Shown piece by piece: positions 3,715 through 12,783 of a DNA stretch of 64,000 bases. The stretch is from a bacterium (GTDB lineage: Bacteria; Auribacterota; Tritonobacteria; UBA1439). Position 1 is the first letter of the stretch, and each line of letters starts with the position of its first letter. The stretch is taken from assembly GCA_028716845.1 (NCBI GenBank), contig JAQUPF010000002.1, forward strand, positions 1 to 64,000, in the 5' to 3' direction. The notes under the pieces are model-generated. The model saw only the letters and a program-made list of their open reading frames with translations. It made no database searches and was not told the DNA's origin. Position numbers and translations under genes: made by a program.

Positions 3715-5175
3715 CTACTCCAGGTACCGTCCGAGCCGCCCGCGGAGGGCGTCGCGGCGTTCCGCCAGGTTGAAGCCACACCAGGGCCGCGGACAGAACC
3801 CCTTCTCGGCGTGCGAGACGCAGTTCATGTCGACGAGCTCGTCCGTCCCCGTCTCGATCAGCCCGCAGTAGACCCGGGCCCAGAAGTTCGCCCGCGTCTC
3901 GGCGTGGTATTTCCCCCAGTCCGTCCCCCAGTCGAGCGGCCGCTCGTAGTGCGACCGGATGAGCCCGCCGATGTGCTTCGGGTGCCAGCCGTGGCTGAGG
4001 AGGACGCGGCAGACCGTCTGGATGCAGCTCGGGACGGCGAGCGCCGGGTTCGCGTTGCGGATGGCGTTCCCCGCGCACGGCGGGAGCGACGCGAGATCGA
4101 GCCGCCAGTACGTCTGCGGCCACCGGTCCGGCGGCTCATGCTCGACCGAGTCGAACTCCCGGTGGAAGGCGGCGAGCGGCGAGGCGGCGTAGTCCGCGAT
4201 CACCCGCCCCCACCCCTCCGCCGCGTCGGGGATCTTCGAGGAGGCCGACCGGGCGTGGCGGGCGGCGCGGGCGAGGTCGCGCCGTATTTCGAACAGCTCC
4301 CCGATGCCGAGCTCCCCCCGCGGCACGGTGGCGAAGACCGGCAGCTCCCGGGCGGCCGCCTCCCCGACGAGGCCGACGTACACCTTGTGCTTCTGGTGCG
4401 TGGAGAAGGAGGTGCGGATGTCGCGCATGTAGAGCGGATCGGCGTACTGGGTGATGTCGAGGTTCATCCCCTCCCTCCCCCGCTCTCCGCGCGCGGTCGC
4501 GACGTCGGAGACCATGATGGGGAGGGGGCTCTCTCGACGCGCATCCCGCATGACGCGGTGGCAGAGGAACTCCATGAGCCGGCCGACGGCGCTGTAGCCG
4601 AGGCCCTCGCGTTCCGGGACCGGCCGGCGGCGCTTGCTGTCGCCGCCGGGGACGCTCAGGTACTTCTCGGCGAGTCCCGGCTCGACATGGCCGACCGCCT
4701 CGAGCCGCCGATGCACCGGCGACGAGAAGGGGATGCGCGAGACGAAATGGTAGCCGGAGGCGGTCGCGTCGTCGAGGTGGGGGATCCGGTAGCCGTCGAG
4801 GATGCGCCGGATCGACCGGTGGACGGGCTCCATCAGTTCGAAGTGGGGGACCTGTCGCCGGTACAGGTCGGTCCAGGAGTCGAGGTTGAAATACTCGATG
4901 TCCCAGACGGCGAGCGTCGCCCTGCTGTCCCAGACCGCGCGGAACAGGTCGAGCCCCTCCTCCATGAGGCCGCCGAGCCCGTCCCGGTCGGCCAGCCGGA
5001 GGGGGCGCCGGTAGCCCCGCCGGACGAGGGACTCGCCGAAACCGACGCAGTACTCGCAGGTGAACCGGCGGCCGCCGCAGAACTCCTGGATACGGGCCCG
5101 CACCGCCTCGTCCCGGTAGTACGCGAGGACGGCATCGAACTGCTCCTCCGACATGACCGGGCTGAGCATGCGCAT
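3715..5175 (-). CDS. PriS-like (AEP superfamily) protein, second tandem copy
   Basis: A 486-residue paralogue of the gene just upstream. Shared blocks run the whole length: an N-terminal YYRD..VR.RI..(F/Y)CGG, then WDIEYFNLD (D92, E94), SGYHF (141-143), GRLMEFL, SDVA, LDITQYADPLYMRDIR and FSTHQKHKV, and a C-terminal block ending NCVSHAEKGFC...C. The order D-x-E, then small-x-H, then h-D followed by R-rich and S-x-H-x-K resembles the catalytic layout of archaeo-eukaryotic primases, especially PriS (D...RLIR.P.SLHGK). Assignment is by motif pattern only. It starts 10 bases after the upstream copy ends, so both are surely one operon. Function could be primer synthesis, repair or a degenerate accessory subunit. 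Confidence 0.62.
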   Translation of the reverse strand: MRMLSPVMSEEQFDAVLAYYRDEAVRARIQEFCGGRRFTCEYCVGFGESLVRRGYRRPLRLADRDGLGGLMEEGLDLFRAVWDSRATLAVWDIEYFNLDSWTDLYRRQVPHFELMEPVHRSIRRILDGYRIPHLDDATASGYHFVSRIPFSSPVHRRLEAVGHVEPGLAEKYLSVPGGDSKRRRPVPEREGLGYSAVGRLMEFLCHRVMRDARRESPLPIMVSDVATARGERGREGMNLDITQYADPLYMRDIRTSFSTHQKHKVYVGLVGEAAARELPVFATVPRGELGIGELFEIRRDLARAARHARSASSKIPDAAEGWGRVIADYAASPLAAFHREFDSVEHEPPDRWPQTYWRLDLASLPPCAGNAIRNANPALAVPSCIQTVCRVLLSHGWHPKHIGGLIRSHYERPLDWGTDWGKYHAETRANFWARVYCGLIETGTDELVDMNCVSHAEKGFCPRPWCGFNLAERRDALRGRLGRYLE

Positions 5176-5185
5176 CGGGGGAGGG

Positions 5186-6682
5186 TCAGAACTTCCCGTT
5201 CCAGCGGTACATGCCGAGGCTGTAGCCGCAGTTCGGCTGCCAGCAGTACCCCTTCTCGAGGTGGGAGACGCAGTTGTGGTCGATCATCTGGTCGGTGCCG
5301 TCGGCGATGAGGCCGGCGAAGAGTCGGATGTAGAACGAGGAGCGGGATCCGGCGTCGAAGTGCGCCCACCGGTCGGAGCCCCAGCCGTAGTCCCCCTCCC
5401 ACTTCGACCGGACGAGGCCGGCGACGTGCTGCGGGTGCCAGCCGAGGGCGAGGAGGCAGCGGGTGAGCGTCTGGAGGTTGGTGGGCTTCAGGAGGTGGTC
5501 GTTCGGGATCTGGAGGCCGTGCTGGACGCACGGCGGCAGGACGCGCGCGTCGAAGGCGCGGTAGGTGGCGTCCCACTTGCTCCAGGGGTCCTGCCGCACG
5601 CCGTCGTACCACTGGTGGAAGCGGAAGAGCGTCGACTTCTGGTAGTCCGCGATGACCTTCTTGAAGTTGACGCTGAAATCGGGGATGAAGCAGTACGTCC
5701 GCGCGGCGTACTCGGCGCACCGCCGGAAGTGGCGCCGCATGCCGAGGCACTCGTCGAGGTCGAGGGAGCCGCGCGGGATGGCGACCTGGACCGGCGTCCG
5801 GCTCGCGATCTCCTCCCCCACCTTCGCCCGCTGGACCTTGTGCTTCTGGTGGGTGGAGAAGGCGCAGCGGAGGTCGCGCATGTAGATCGGGTCGCCGAAG
5901 CAGGAGAGGTCGATCGAGACGGCCTCGCGGGCGCCGCGCCCGCTCCGCCCGACCGCGACGTCGGTGAGCATGACGGGGATGCGGGATGCCTTCGCCGCCT
6001 CCCGGACGATCTCGTGGGCGAGGAACTCCATGACCCTCCCCATCCCGTCGAACGAGCGGCCGTGGCGGAGCGAGACCTTTCGGTGCCGCTTGCTCAGCTC
6101 CACGCCGTACTTCCCCTCGAGGGAGTCGATGAGGCGGCCGAAGCCCTCGAGCATGAGGTCGGTCTTCGTCCCGGACTGCACCTGGAAGGAGAAATGGTAC
6201 CCCTGCCCGGTCATGATGACGAGCGGCTGGATGCCGTACTTCCCGTACACCTTGAGGATGGCCCGGTAGACCGGCTCGAGCTTCCTGAAGACGCCGGCCT
6301 GATTGAGGTACACCTCGCCGGGATAATCGATGTTGAAATACTCCACGTCGAGGACGCCGAGGGTGTGGACCCGGTCCCAGAGCGAGCGGAAGATGTCGAG
6401 GCCGCGCTCGAGGATGGAGCCGAAGCCCGCCTTCGGCGTGGAGATGTACGGCTCGGGCGCGGGCGTCCCGATGAGCGCCTCGCCGTAGCCGACGAGGTAC
6501 TCGGCAGTGCAGAGCTCGGGCTCCTGGGCGCTGCCGCCGCAGTACTCGGCGATGCGCTCCCTGACCTCGGGGTCGCGATAGTATTCGACCGGCGTCAGCA
6601 CGGGTGTTCTCCTCGACGCGCGCCGCGGCCGCACGGCGGGAATCGCGCGTCCGGCCCGCGGGGGATTTTCATTATCCCGCAT
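5186..6682 (-). CDS. PriS-like (AEP superfamily) protein, first tandem copy
   Basis: A 498-residue protein. Candidate AEP motifs: LDVEYFN (D112, E114) for the acidic motif, TGQGYHF (159-164) for small-x-H, and SIDLSCFGDP (D258) leading into YMRDLRCAFSTHQKHKV (267-283), close to the PriS block with RLIR and SLHGKTG. The C-terminus has an LL.LGWHP.HVAGL helix and a possible metal site C471, H474, C480, C485. The ATG at 6682 is chosen because GGAGG lies 11 bases upstream; an in-frame extension to 6898 runs through intergenic repeat DNA and shows no homology to the paralogue. No Ku, ligase, integrase or helicase gene adjoins. The AEP call is inference from motifs, not alignment. Confidence 0.62.
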   Translation of the reverse strand: MRDNENPPRAGRAIPAVRPRRASRRTPVLTPVEYYRDPEVRERIAEYCGGSAQEPELCTAEYLVGYGEALIGTPAPEPYISTPKAGFGSILERGLDIFRSLWDRVHTLGVLDVEYFNIDYPGEVYLNQAGVFRKLEPVYRAILKVYGKYGIQPLVIMTGQGYHFSFQVQSGTKTDLMLEGFGRLIDSLEGKYGVELSKRHRKVSLRHGRSFDGMGRVMEFLAHEIVREAAKASRIPVMLTDVAVGRSGRGAREAVSIDLSCFGDPIYMRDLRCAFSTHQKHKVQRAKVGEEIASRTPVQVAIPRGSLDLDECLGMRRHFRRCAEYAARTYCFIPDFSVNFKKVIADYQKSTLFRFHQWYDGVRQDPWSKWDATYRAFDARVLPPCVQHGLQIPNDHLLKPTNLQTLTRCLLALGWHPQHVAGLVRSKWEGDYGWGSDRWAHFDAGSRSSFYIRLFAGLIADGTDQMIDHNCVSHLEKGYCWQPNCGYSLGMYRWNGKF

Positions 6683-6711: not shown

Positions 6712-6837
6712 GGCCGGACACGAAGCAGGAATCCACCGCGGATGTGCACGGATTCCTGCGGATTATCGCGGATTCACGATCTTCCTGCCGCGGATTTCCG
6801 CAGATAAACGCTGATCGAATAATTGAAGGCGGACAGG
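6712..6837 (-). repeat. Dispersed CGGAT-type intergenic element, reverse orientation
   Basis: Copy of the dispersed element family in the opposite orientation to the rest. It begins with CGGACACGAAG and GAATCCACCGCGGAT, the reverse complement of the conserved right arm of the 56451-56565 copy, and continues with spaced CGGAT half-sites (CACGGATTC, GCGGATTATCGCGGAT, CCGCGGATTTCCG). It lies in the 420-base gap between the divergent primase-like and lemA genes; apart from this and the adjoining repeat the gap holds no gene I can support. Confidence 0.75.
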
Positions 6838-6852
6838 ATTGGATCGTGTTTT

Positions 6853-6961
6853 GCCACGGAGTGCACAGAGAACACGGAGGATGTTTGTCCTGCTGCACGT
6901 TCGCGCGGTTTCAACGGGGAGGACTCTCCGGATTCTCTGTGATCTCTGTGATCTCCGTGGC
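6853..6961. repeat. Palindromic element with GCCACGGAG termini
   Basis: A 109-base element with perfect 9-base inverted ends, GCCACGGAG at 6853-6861 and CTCCGTGGC at 6953-6961. Inside, the left half carries CACAGAGAACACGGAGG and the right half CTCTGTGATCTCTGTGATC, so tandem CACRGAG half-sites on the left face their complements on the right and could fold into a long imperfect hairpin. It is related in style but not identical to the CACGGAT family. A solo right-arm-like stretch follows at about 6975-7032 (ATCCGTGGAGTTCCGTGGTG). Confidence 0.75.
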
Positions 6962-7102
6962 AGAAGGCATACTCCGCGGCAATCCGTCAAGAATCCGTGG
7001 AGTTCCGTGGTGTGGAGTTCATTATGCCGCAGCCGGGGCCCCGCCGATTGCTGCTGCGCGGGCGGGGCCGTTTCGGTATCATCGCCCAGGGAGGGTCACG
7101 CC

Positions 7103-10444: not shown

Positions 10445-10563
10445 CGAACGTCCTCCGCCCTGACGATGGCCACCATCTTCGCGCGGGATTCCCCGCGGAA
10501 GATTCCATATCTCTCTGTATGGCAGTATGTTATGATTCGGCCGGACGGATGCCGTTATCTCTC

Positions 10564-10592
10564 TTGCAATCCGGCTTCAAATGTACTATATT
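10564..10592 (+). promoter_or_regulatory. Sigma-70-type promoter, TTGCAA-17-TATATT
   Basis: In an AT-rich island of otherwise GC-rich DNA, TTGCAA at 10564-10569 and TATATT at 10587-10592 are separated by 17 bases, a near-consensus housekeeping promoter. Transcription would begin near 10600 and run into the repeat protein at 10679 with a leader of about 80 bases. The rest of the 234-base gap from 10445 holds no gene I can support. Confidence 0.7.
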
Positions 10593-10678
10593 ATGACAGC
10601 TTTAAAAAGCGCGGTCCTCGATGGTCCTCCCGGTGGAGGACGGAGGGCGGCGCGCATCATGGGAGGGAGGTGCGTTTC

Positions 10679-11095
10679 GTGAGAGGCTTTGTTGTTGCGA
10701 TGGTGATCGCGGGGTTGGTCCTCGCGGTCGGGATCGCCGCCGCCCAGGAGGGCGGAACCGGCATCATGGAGAAGATGAAGGGGATGATGCCCGGGACCGG
10801 CGAGAAAGAGGCCGCCGAGAAGGAAGGCACCGGCATGCTCGAGAAGGTGAAGGGCGTCCTGCCCGGCGCCGGCGAGAAAGAGGCCGCCGAGAAGGAAGGC
10901 ACCGGCATGCTCGAGAAGGTGAAGGGCGTCCTGCCCGGCGCCGGCGAGAAAGAGGCCGCCGAGAAGGAAGGCGCCGGCATGCTCGAGAAGATGAAGGGCG
11001 TCCTGCCCGGCGCCGGCGAGAAGGAGGCGACCGAGAAGGAAGGCGCCGGCATGCTCGAGAAGATGAAGAAGATGGTGCCGGGAACCGGCAACTAG
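10679..11095 (+). CDS. Exported protein of 24-residue tandem repeats
   Basis: A 138-residue protein of unknown function. GTG at 10679 is chosen because GGGAGGGAGG lies 8 bases upstream and it gives a clean signal peptide ([22 protein letters not shown]). The mature protein is four 24-residue repeats and a partial fifth, each built as [24 protein letters not shown]-like units split into an amphipathic helix ([11 protein letters not shown]) and an acidic/basic linker (EKEAAEKEG). It has no cysteine and looks like a small extracytoplasmic helical or filament-like protein. It forms an isolated transcription unit, with its own strong promoter and terminator, which suggests high expression. Confidence 0.75.
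10754..11092 (+). repeat. 72-base in-frame tandem repeat, 4.7 units
   Basis: Units begin at 10754, 10826, 10898, 10970 and 11042 (the last is 51 bases). The second and third units are almost identical in DNA, including synonymous positions, while the first and last have diverged most. This suggests recent unit duplication by slippage or recombination inside the coding frame. Unit length is a multiple of three, so copy changes keep the frame. Confidence 0.9.
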
Positions 11096-11211: not shown

Positions 11212-11976
11212 ATGACGTACCGACGAATCATCCCGTGCCTCGACACGAAGGACGGCCGTCTGGTCAAGGGCGTCCATTTCGCCGACCTGCGGGACCTCGG
11301 CGACCCGGCCGAGGCGGGCGCGGCCTACAGCGAGGCGGGGGCGGATGAACTCGTCCTCCTCGACATCACGGCGACCGACGAGGGGAGGAAGACGCTCCTC
11401 TCCGTCGTCCGGCGCACGGCGGCCGCCGTGTCGGCGCCGTTCACCGTCGGCGGCGGCGTCGGGGGGCTCGACGACATCCGCGCCCTCCTCGACGCGGGCG
11501 CGGCGCGGGTCTCGATCAACACGGCGGCGGTGCGGCGTCCCGACCTCGTCGGGGAGGCGGCCGCCGAGTTCGGGAGCGGGCGGGTCGTCGTGGCGATCGA
11601 CACGCGGCGTTCGAAGGCCGTCCCCTCCGGCTTCGAGGCCGTGGTGCGCGGGGGGCGGGAGCCGACGGGCCTCGATGCCGTCAAGTGGGCGAGGCGGGTC
11701 GTGGCGCTCGGCGCGGGGGCGATCCTCCCCACGAGCATGGACGCCGACGGCACCCGCGCCGGTTACGACATCCCGATGACGAGGGCCGTCGCCGACGCCG
11801 TCCGCGTGCCCGTGATCGCCTCCGGGGGCGCCGGGACGCTCGAGCACCTCCGCGAGGCGATCGTCGAGGGGCATGCCGACGCCGTCCTCGTCGCCTCCAT
11901 CGCGCACTACGGCACCTACACCATCCGGCAGATGAAGGAGTACCTGGCCTCGGAGGGGATCCCCGTCCGGCTCTAG
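11212..11976 (+). CDS. hisF: Imidazole glycerol phosphate synthase, cyclase subunit
   Basis: A 254-residue HisF of normal length. It uses ammonia from the HisH glutaminase to convert PRFAR into imidazole glycerol phosphate and AICAR in histidine synthesis, in the cytoplasm. The two catalytic aspartates are visible: IIPCLD near residue 11 and VVAIDTRR near 130. Other barrel motifs are [22 protein letters not shown] and [11 protein letters not shown] 11212 is preceded by CGGAGG at 11201-11206; an upstream in-frame ATG at 11185 overlaps the -10 box. No other his gene lies in the window, so the pathway genes must be dispersed. Confidence 0.95.
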
Positions 11977-12000
11977 GGCGCCCGGCAGGCGGATCGAGCG

Positions 12001-12144
12001 ATGCCCGCGAACCTCCCCCCGCAGTACGTCGTCGCGGGAAAGCGGCTCAGGGCGGCGAGAGACCTCGAGGAGAAGATCGCCGTCCTCGGGGAGATGTGGT
12101 CGCTCCTCCCGAAACACAAGGGGACCGTCAAGGTCCAGGCCGTG
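12001..12144 (+). pseudogene. N-terminal remnant of a TGS-domain (DRG/Obg-like) GTPase
   Basis: The first 48 codons read MPANLPPQYVVAGKRLRAAR then a DLEEKIAVLGEM...LLPKHKGT block. From memory this is the highly conserved N-terminal helix of the bacterial/archaeal TGS-containing GTPase family related to DRG and Obg (MPANLPPQY, EEKI..LEEM, PKHKGT). After PKHKGT the match stops: no G1-G5 GTPase motifs follow, and within 75 bases the promoter of the next gene appears. The frame stays open by chance into the next gene. It reads as a truncated remnant, or less likely a short stand-alone peptide gene. Confidence 0.55.
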
Positions 12145-12216
12145 CGCGGGGATTCCGTCATGATCAGCGGCAATCGGTGCGAAATCGGTTCTTCTGATCC
12201 GGGGCGGAGGGGGCGG

Positions 12217-12245
12217 TTGCTCCCCCTCCCGCGCCGTGGTATGCT
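12217..12245 (+). promoter_or_regulatory. Sigma-70-type promoter, TTGCTC-17-TATGCT
   Basis: TTGCTC at 12217-12222 and TATGCT at 12240-12245 with a 17-base spacer, 41 bases before the lipoprotein ATG at 12286. It supports that start over the long in-frame extension to 12001. Confidence 0.6.
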
Positions 12246-12285
12246 TGTGGGGCAATCCGCCGTTCGGCGGGCGAAGGAGGGGACC

Positions 12286-12783
12286 ATGAAGGCGCTCATT
12301 GCGGCCGCCGCCCTCTGCGCGGGCGGCTGCATGCTCGTGCCGGGCGGCCTCGGCGCGGCCGAGGAGACGGACCCCGGCCGGATCGTCGCCAACCCGGGCT
12401 CGTTCATCAACCGGAACGTGACGATCACGGTCGGATTCGGCAAGATCAGCAACGTCTTCCACGGCTGGGAGGGCGAGGCCAACCTGAACCGGAAGATCAA
12501 GTTCCTCGTCCAGCCGCTCGGCCGGATCGCCTGCTACGCCGACCAGACGAGGGAGAACGAGAAGCTGCTGGGCAACCTCTCGCCCGGCCAGGAGCTGACG
12601 ATCACCGGGAACGTGCGGAAGTACAAGTTCGAGGCGAAGATCAAGGGCGAGCGGCGGACGGTGAAGCGGACAGTGAAGGGGTCCGAGATCTACGGCTTCA
12701 TCGTCAGGAAGATCGACCGCGTCGGGGCAGCCCCCGGCGGGTCGGGGCTGCCGGGGCTGCTGCAGGAAATGATGGAGCCCTGA
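12286..12783 (+). CDS. Predicted lipoprotein, possible OB-fold
   Basis: A 165-residue predicted lipoprotein. The leader MKALIAAAALCAGGCMLVPG has a lipobox AGGC, so Cys15 is the likely lipidation site. The mature region runs INRNVTITVGFGKISNVF, then GRIACYADQT, GQELTITGNVRKYKFEAK and EIYGFIVRKIDRV, an alternation of short strands and turns that resembles OB-fold lipoproteins, though I cannot prove the fold. ATG 12286 has GGAGG ten bases upstream and a promoter 40 bases upstream. The frame continues upstream into the GTPase remnant, which should not be joined to it. Confidence 0.7.
   Translation: MKALIAAAALCAGGCMLVPGGLGAAEETDPGRIVANPGSFINRNVTITVGFGKISNVFHGWEGEANLNRKIKFLVQPLGRIACYADQTRENEKLLGNLSPGQELTITGNVRKYKFEAKIKGERRTVKRTVKGSEIYGFIVRKIDRVGAAPGGSGLPGLLQEMMEP

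Follow-up and report, generated by a model that had tools for sequence, protein, structure and literature searches.

Primases of Archaea and eukaryotes combine a PriS subunit, which has the archaeo-eukaryotic primase (AEP, or prim-pol) fold, with a PriL subunit. Archaeal PriS carries an H-R-H nucleotide-binding signature (Kazlauskas et al., PMC5862659). PriL is almost confined to chromosome-replicating primases, and the bacterial primases of the PrimPol-PV1 supergroup are nearly all located on mobile elements (PMC5862659). When PolpTN2, a plasmid-encoded PriS-PriL fusion, is deprived of its PriL-like domain, it retains polymerase and primase activity, but primes the synthesis of double-stranded DNA poorly (PMC3973330). 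In mycobacteria, Prim-PolC serves base excision repair by filling short gaps (PMC5663958). Here, we describe two adjacent genes, A and B, in a 64,000-nucleotide stretch of bacterial DNA (the window; positions 1 to 64,000 of contig JAQUPF010000002.1, assembly GCA_028716845.1, phylum Auribacterota). With a probability that we put at about 0.6, A and B are paralogues in a new chromosomal family of bacterial AEPs, which combine PriS-like and probable iron-sulphur PriL-like parts and serve as accessory primase-polymerases.

AEPs as such are already known. What appears to be new is the chromosomal setting in bacteria, the fusion of PriS-like and PriL-like four-cysteine parts, and the old tandem duplication. 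The family apparently represents undescribed, chromosomally inherited bacterial AEPs. No earlier description was found in a literature search, which most subscription papers lay outside. The features of the pair are as follows, in window positions; residue numbers for A refer to its 498-residue version throughout.

5186..6601, minus strand: gene A, the upstream gene of the pair, 471 amino acids from GTG 6601 (498 amino acids from ATG 6682), with an AEP domain and a four-cysteine C-terminal domain.
3715..5175, minus strand: gene B, the downstream gene of the pair, 486 amino acids, 42% identical to A, with the same domains and all catalytic residues.
5633..6610, minus strand: AEP catalytic domain of A, residues ~25-350, assigned with AlphaFold2 and VIA-align.
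6341..6349, minus strand: motif I of A, D-V-E (D112, E114), invariant in 45 of 45 members and also throughout the divergent branches.
6194..6202, minus strand: motif II of A, G-Y-H (G161, H163), with no change of G or H in any member.
5837..5911, minus strand: motif III/IV of A, D258...R269..R272...S276-x-H278-x-K280-x-K282, with D258, R269, R272, S276 and K280 invariant.
5189..5671, minus strand: helical four-cysteine C-terminal domain of A, residues 338-498 (C385, C471, C480, C485), probably like the C-terminal domain (CTD) of PriL, assigned from the conserved cysteines, with negative fold searches.
3718..4218, minus strand: helical four-cysteine C-terminal domain of B, assigned by alignment with that of A.

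The initial annotation had proposed two tandem genes 10 bases apart, with products of 498 and 486 residues. The spacing and the size of B stand, and the size of A has to be revised. Translation of A probably starts at GTG 6601 to give 471 residues, because relatives start at an equivalent M-L-T/S-P(-x-x-Y-Y), because a GAGGAG ribosome site precedes this GTG by 7 nt, and because residues 1-24 of the 498-residue version have a predicted local distance difference test score (pLDDT) below 50. The 27 additional residues of the longer reading are mostly disordered in the AlphaFold2 model. A and B are 42% identical over ~460 residues, nearly their full length (E 4.5e-118), a similarity that at the level of sequence is far beyond chance. 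Their alignment contains all the motifs that had been quoted, namely LDVEYFN/WDIEYFN, GQGYHF/ASGYHF, DP(I/L)YMRD(L/I)R, FSTHQKHKV and NCVSHxEKG(Y/F)C...C. The intergenic DNA upstream of A (6740-6999) contains imperfect inverted repeats with 34-nt arms (82%) and CACGGAG/CACAGAGA-like words.

The AlphaFold2 model of A, built from a 45-sequence input (pLDDT 91.8, predicted template modelling score 0.90), has the AEP fold. Comparison of residues 25-350 by VIA-align places Prim-PolC closest (Z 17.2 over 256 residues, root-mean-square deviation 3.5), followed by the Pseudomonas LigD polymerase (Z 15.7), the CRISPR-associated Prim-Pol (CAPP; 13.1), Pyrococcus furiosus PriS (11.9) and human PriS (~11). 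The top 50 rows of this comparison are all AEP proteins, with Z values from 17.2 to 8.7. Foldseek alone ranks the same proteins at the top, but with E values of 0.007 and above, and against viral structures it returns only weak AEP-like matches. The AEP motifs hDhD/E, sxH and hD are present as D112-x-E114, G-x-H163 and D258. In an alignment of 12 representatives of three branches, D112, E114, G161, H163, D258, R269, R272, S276 and K280 are among the invariant residues. In the model, the acidic and histidine motifs and R272 are placed on strands as the AEP plan requires: D112 and E114 lie in strand 106-117, H163 in 161-169, and R272 in 270-272, and D258 ends strand 253-258. H163, R272 and H278 reproduce the H-R-H pattern of archaeal PriS, with H278 replaced by tyrosine in some members. 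B presumably shares the AEP fold, to judge from its 42% identity to A and the common motifs. The PriS-like primase layout suggested from the motifs is thus borne out by the AEP fold of the A model, by a genuine R...S-x-H-x-K block, and by acidic and histidine motifs that are invariant across the family. A structure model without an AEP core, the outcome that had been named beforehand as speaking against this layout, was not obtained, since the model of A has the core.

Residues 338-498 of A form a helical domain in the model (pLDDT 93.6). The initial annotation had read its metal-binding set as C-H-C-C, which does not hold: position 474 can be H, Q, A, T, M, Y or L, and the conserved set consists of C385, C471, C480 and C485, which are kept in all complete members of the iron-sulphur type. 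The cysteines occur in the contexts L-P-P-C, N-C, G-Y-C and C-G-[FY]-[SN]-L. The corresponding contexts in human PRIM2, confirmed against PDB chains, are F-P-P-C, F-S-C, H-G-C and D-D-C-G-F-S-L, and the cysteines at these positions hold the PRIM2 4Fe-4S cluster. When 13-residue blocks around the four cysteines were scored against PRIM2, with p values obtained by shuffling, the result was p 4.5e-4, and the known ligand set scored highest of the 15 possible cysteine choices, in a test that was designed post hoc, after the resemblance had been noticed. The PriL profile PF04104 matches 4 of 43 members weakly and below its cut-off, and the best PriL profile matches in the family (E 0.011-0.03) are below significance. 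The match in L031 covers profile positions 89-175, the same region as the match of the fusion protein L057 described below (86-205). It is likely that the C-terminal domain is PriL-like, and from the cysteine pattern and the analogy with PRIM2 it probably binds a 4Fe-4S cluster, like the PriL-CTD of archaeal and eukaryotic primases. If it is PriL-CTD-like, each protein is a PriS-PriL-type fusion.

A different, smaller AEP-type protein with a DLVLDFD motif and a PriL-like four-cysteine domain is encoded in another genome of the phylum (G025; L057 1471-2613, minus strand). It scores above the PF04104 cut-off, and its gene is located near a DNA methyltransferase. A 63% relative, also an AEP-PriL-like fusion, is located on a predicted viral contig of IMG/VR (L060 2001-3080). 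The cysteine-block test gave p 0.028 for L057 and p 1e-4 for L060.

Several results, together with the post hoc design of the cysteine-block test, weigh against our reading. Sequence-profile searches of Pfam, NCBIfam, PADLOC and the PDB gave no significant match to the family. In particular, no match to PriS families in Pfam or NCBIfam came up at E values up to 1, the PDB profile searches (hmmsearch, A2, A3, A4, A7) detected no PriS match, and PHROGs yielded no significant AEP or PriL match. The C-terminal domain alone finds no fold match in the PDB by Foldseek or VIA. Its hhalign profile-profile comparison with PriL does not stand out from chance, scores as high being reached by 4 of 100 and 8 of 100 shuffles, and the profile-profile comparisons with PRIM2 and with L057/L060 give a plausible register at chance-level scores. 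The AEP core persists without the four cysteines in a further branch and in some paralogues of Elusimicrobiota, so a cluster is not essential to the family. Finally, a role in repair is argued by elimination and from a weak lead among the neighbouring genes.

The family is present in 11 of the 44 genomes of the Auribacterota, each of which has one A followed by one B and no further copy. One pair carrier of the window's own taxonomic family, the source of contig L024, is deposited as Candidatus Auribacterota. A scan of public genomes gave 32 loci, among others in UBP18, Hydrogenedentota, Elusimicrobiota, Lindow-, Schekman- and Wallbacteria, and in some metagenome-assembled genomes labelled Clostridia. 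Both UBP18-type loci also have the A-B pair, and the paired genes are mostly 2-26 bp apart. Outside these two groups (in Hydrogenedentota, Elusimicrobiota and others), the four-cysteine form is usually single-copy. In a sample of 295 Elusimicrobiota genomes, 20 carry the family, many of them with a second, cysteine-less paralogue that is adjacent or elsewhere, and five have only a third, divergent branch without the cysteines. Our tree places the A lineage among single-copy proteins from other phyla and restricts the B lineage to Auribacterota and UBP18. The tree is mostly consistent with the lineages of the carriers, and its long branches make the deepest joins uncertain. The A/B duplication appears from the sequences to predate the phyla that carry the pair, because a fully supported branch divides the A and B lineages.

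The pair resides on the chromosome beside housekeeping genes. Its neighbours in the window encode deoC, a phosphotransferase, a cyclophilin-like protein, a molybdopterin oxidoreductase, LemA, a DUF2207 protein, a methyltransferase, a histidine-biosynthesis gene, a solute-binding protein and a phospholipase D-like protein. An open reading frame at 10466-11095 of the window carries ~24-residue tandem repeats. DnaG is encoded in 41 of the 44 phylum genomes, including on the window's own contig, and in all six genomes reached through loci elsewhere. With DnaG alongside, the family is not the sole cellular primase, unlike a replicative PriS. Replacement of DnaG was therefore rejected as an explanation, as was replacement of Pol I: every pair-bearing genome also has polA, apart from G008 (75% complete). 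Only some of the pair-bearing genomes encode Y-family polymerases, whose distribution shows no clear relation to the pair. None of the sampled genomes of families f13-f16 of the phylum (G025-G039) has a DNA_pol_A (Pol I) match, and the other families mostly have one.

The fold of A, the active site conserved in both copies, the strict pairing, the chromosomal context and the coexistence with DnaG were computed directly; we infer catalytic activity, dimerisation, a role in repair and the iron-sulphur cluster. To judge from the motifs and the model, D112, E114 and D258 would bind two metals in the PriS-like catalytic domain, and by analogy H163, R272 and H278 would contact the incoming nucleotide. 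Most likely, the C-terminal domain would hold the 5' end or the initiating nucleotide together with the template, and would assist initiation in the manner of PriL. The AEP domain would meanwhile join nucleotides, so that on gapped or single-stranded templates short primers could be started or extended. Since DnaG and, nearly always, Pol I coexist with the pair, we expect an accessory primase-polymerase rather than a replicative primase, which in the cell might reprime past damage or fill gaps. In Auribacterota and UBP18, the two proteins are probably co-produced, and may work as a heterodimer that has two active sites; an A-B heteromer is plausible from the strict tandem pairing of the genes.

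Gap filling in base excision or another excision repair pathway, in the manner of Prim-PolC and with a C-terminal domain that only binds DNA, would account for the data with no true primase function. This explanation stays alive because Prim-PolC, the nearest fold (Z 17.2), fills gaps in mycobacterial base excision repair. Moreover, in several single-copy lineages (L035, L042, L049; L044; L047; L040), the next gene encodes an AP_endonuc_2-type TIM barrel similar to EndoIV and sugar isomerases, found directly downstream of the AEP gene:

L035 3291-4127: TIM-barrel gene.
L042 ~11480-12312: TIM-barrel gene.
L044 4115-4960: TIM-barrel gene.
L047 8054-8911: TIM-barrel gene.
L040 11408-12244: TIM-barrel gene.

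In some lineages, it is followed by hisS. The conserved His/Glu/Asp pattern of the TIM-barrel alignment resembles the metal site of E. coli Nfo/EndoIV, a resemblance that does not establish a true EndoIV. The neighbour may be a partner of the AEP and hints at excision repair, but does not amount to evidence for it. It scores 22-36 bits against deoxyribonuclease IV (nfo) cut-offs of 129 or more, and is not adjacent to the pair in Auribacterota. No ligase gene was recognised adjoining the pair in the window, and no LigC-type ligase partner among the scanned window neighbours, the ATP-ligase families not having been searched genome-wide. The PriS-type R..R...S.H.K block and the four-cysteine domain also favour PriS-PriL over the LigC partners. 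We regard pure gap filling as unlikely. A non-homologous end-joining (NHEJ) polymerase that acts without LigD would fit the similarity to the LigD polymerase fold (Z 15.7). However, neither Ku (PF02735) nor the LigD polymerase (PF21686) was found in any of the 44 phylum genomes, in line with the initial annotation, which had argued against an NHEJ LigD. We have rejected this role, and consider it hardly credible.

Descent from the primase of a domesticated mobile element would make the family kin to the PrimPol-PV1/PolpTN2 fusions of plasmids and viruses. PolpTN2 shares the layout of PriS and four-cysteine PriL parts (PMC3973330), and L060 shows that an AEP-PriL-like fusion can occur on an IMG/VR contig. 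Still, no copy was found in a pattern scan of IMG/VR (2.9 million viral contigs), in PLSDB (72,556 plasmids) or in INPHARED (50,697 phages). Among the window neighbours scanned, no gene of a mobile element, CRISPR system, ligase or helicase was recognised, as already noted at the outset for ligase, helicase and CRISPR. With housekeeping neighbours, a mostly lineage-consistent tree, strict pairing in Auribacterota, and histidine in motif II instead of the glutamine of PolpTN2, such an origin is quite improbable. A division of labour in a heterodimer, with A catalytic and B regulatory, had also been proposed from the two diverged copies. The strict tandem pairing, the slower evolution of A than of B, and the lack of the four cysteines in the second paralogue of some Elusimicrobiota would be consistent with it. 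Nevertheless, D-x-E, G-Y-H, D, R, R, S and K are intact in the B of every genome, so that neither copy seen has lost a catalytic residue, and the cysteine-less second copies (G130:C11:15554, G083:C6:70561, G048:C58:64048 and others; L082-L090) likewise retain this set, with G-x-H in place of G-Y-H. A regulatory B is thus improbable.

We prefer the reading of A and B as an accessory primase-polymerase, perhaps with two active sites. In its broadest form, which we hold tentatively and at slightly less than even odds, several candidate phyla would possess an anciently duplicated, chromosomal two-subunit primase-polymerase. Each subunit would combine PriS and PriL functions, as a single-chain counterpart of the archaeal and eukaryotic primase that acts beside DnaG in genome maintenance. 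A bacterial family that in these searches is confined to chromosomes, with a PriS-type active site, a PriL-like cysteine domain and an apparently early duplication, bears on the origin of the archaeal and eukaryotic primase. It also offers single-chain proteins for probing the part of the iron-sulphur domain in priming.

With the archaeal and eukaryotic PriS-PriL (human PRIM1-PRIM2), the family shares the AEP fold, the D-x-E / x-x-H / D motifs, the R..R...S.H.K block with the HRH signature, and a C-terminal four-cysteine domain that is probably akin to PriL-CTD. In contrast to these primases, it is bacterial, has both parts in one chain and a pair of adjacent full-length paralogues, occurs together with DnaG, has no recognisable PriL N-terminal domain, and stays under all profile thresholds. 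CAPP and the LigD polymerase have the AEP fold in common with A (Z 13.1 and 15.7, respectively). However, no CRISPR or cas gene was recognised among the family neighbours examined, and the family lacks the ligase fusion of LigD, with no Ku or LigD_Prim-Pol match in the phylum. Prim-PolC, the closest solved fold to the catalytic domain of A, has ~330 residues, lacks the four-cysteine domain and acts with LigC, and the family has no LigD-type polymerase profile match. PolpTN2 of the Thermococcus plasmid pTN2 and PrimPol-PV1 are similar in combining a PriS-like AEP domain with a four-cysteine domain, which in A and B is probably PriL-like (PMC3973330, PMC5862659). According to its published description, PolpTN2 is plasmid-borne and has glutamine in motif II, a PriCT-1 domain and a winged helix, whereas the family is chromosomal, with a histidine-type motif II and a shorter C-terminal domain of ~160 amino acids.

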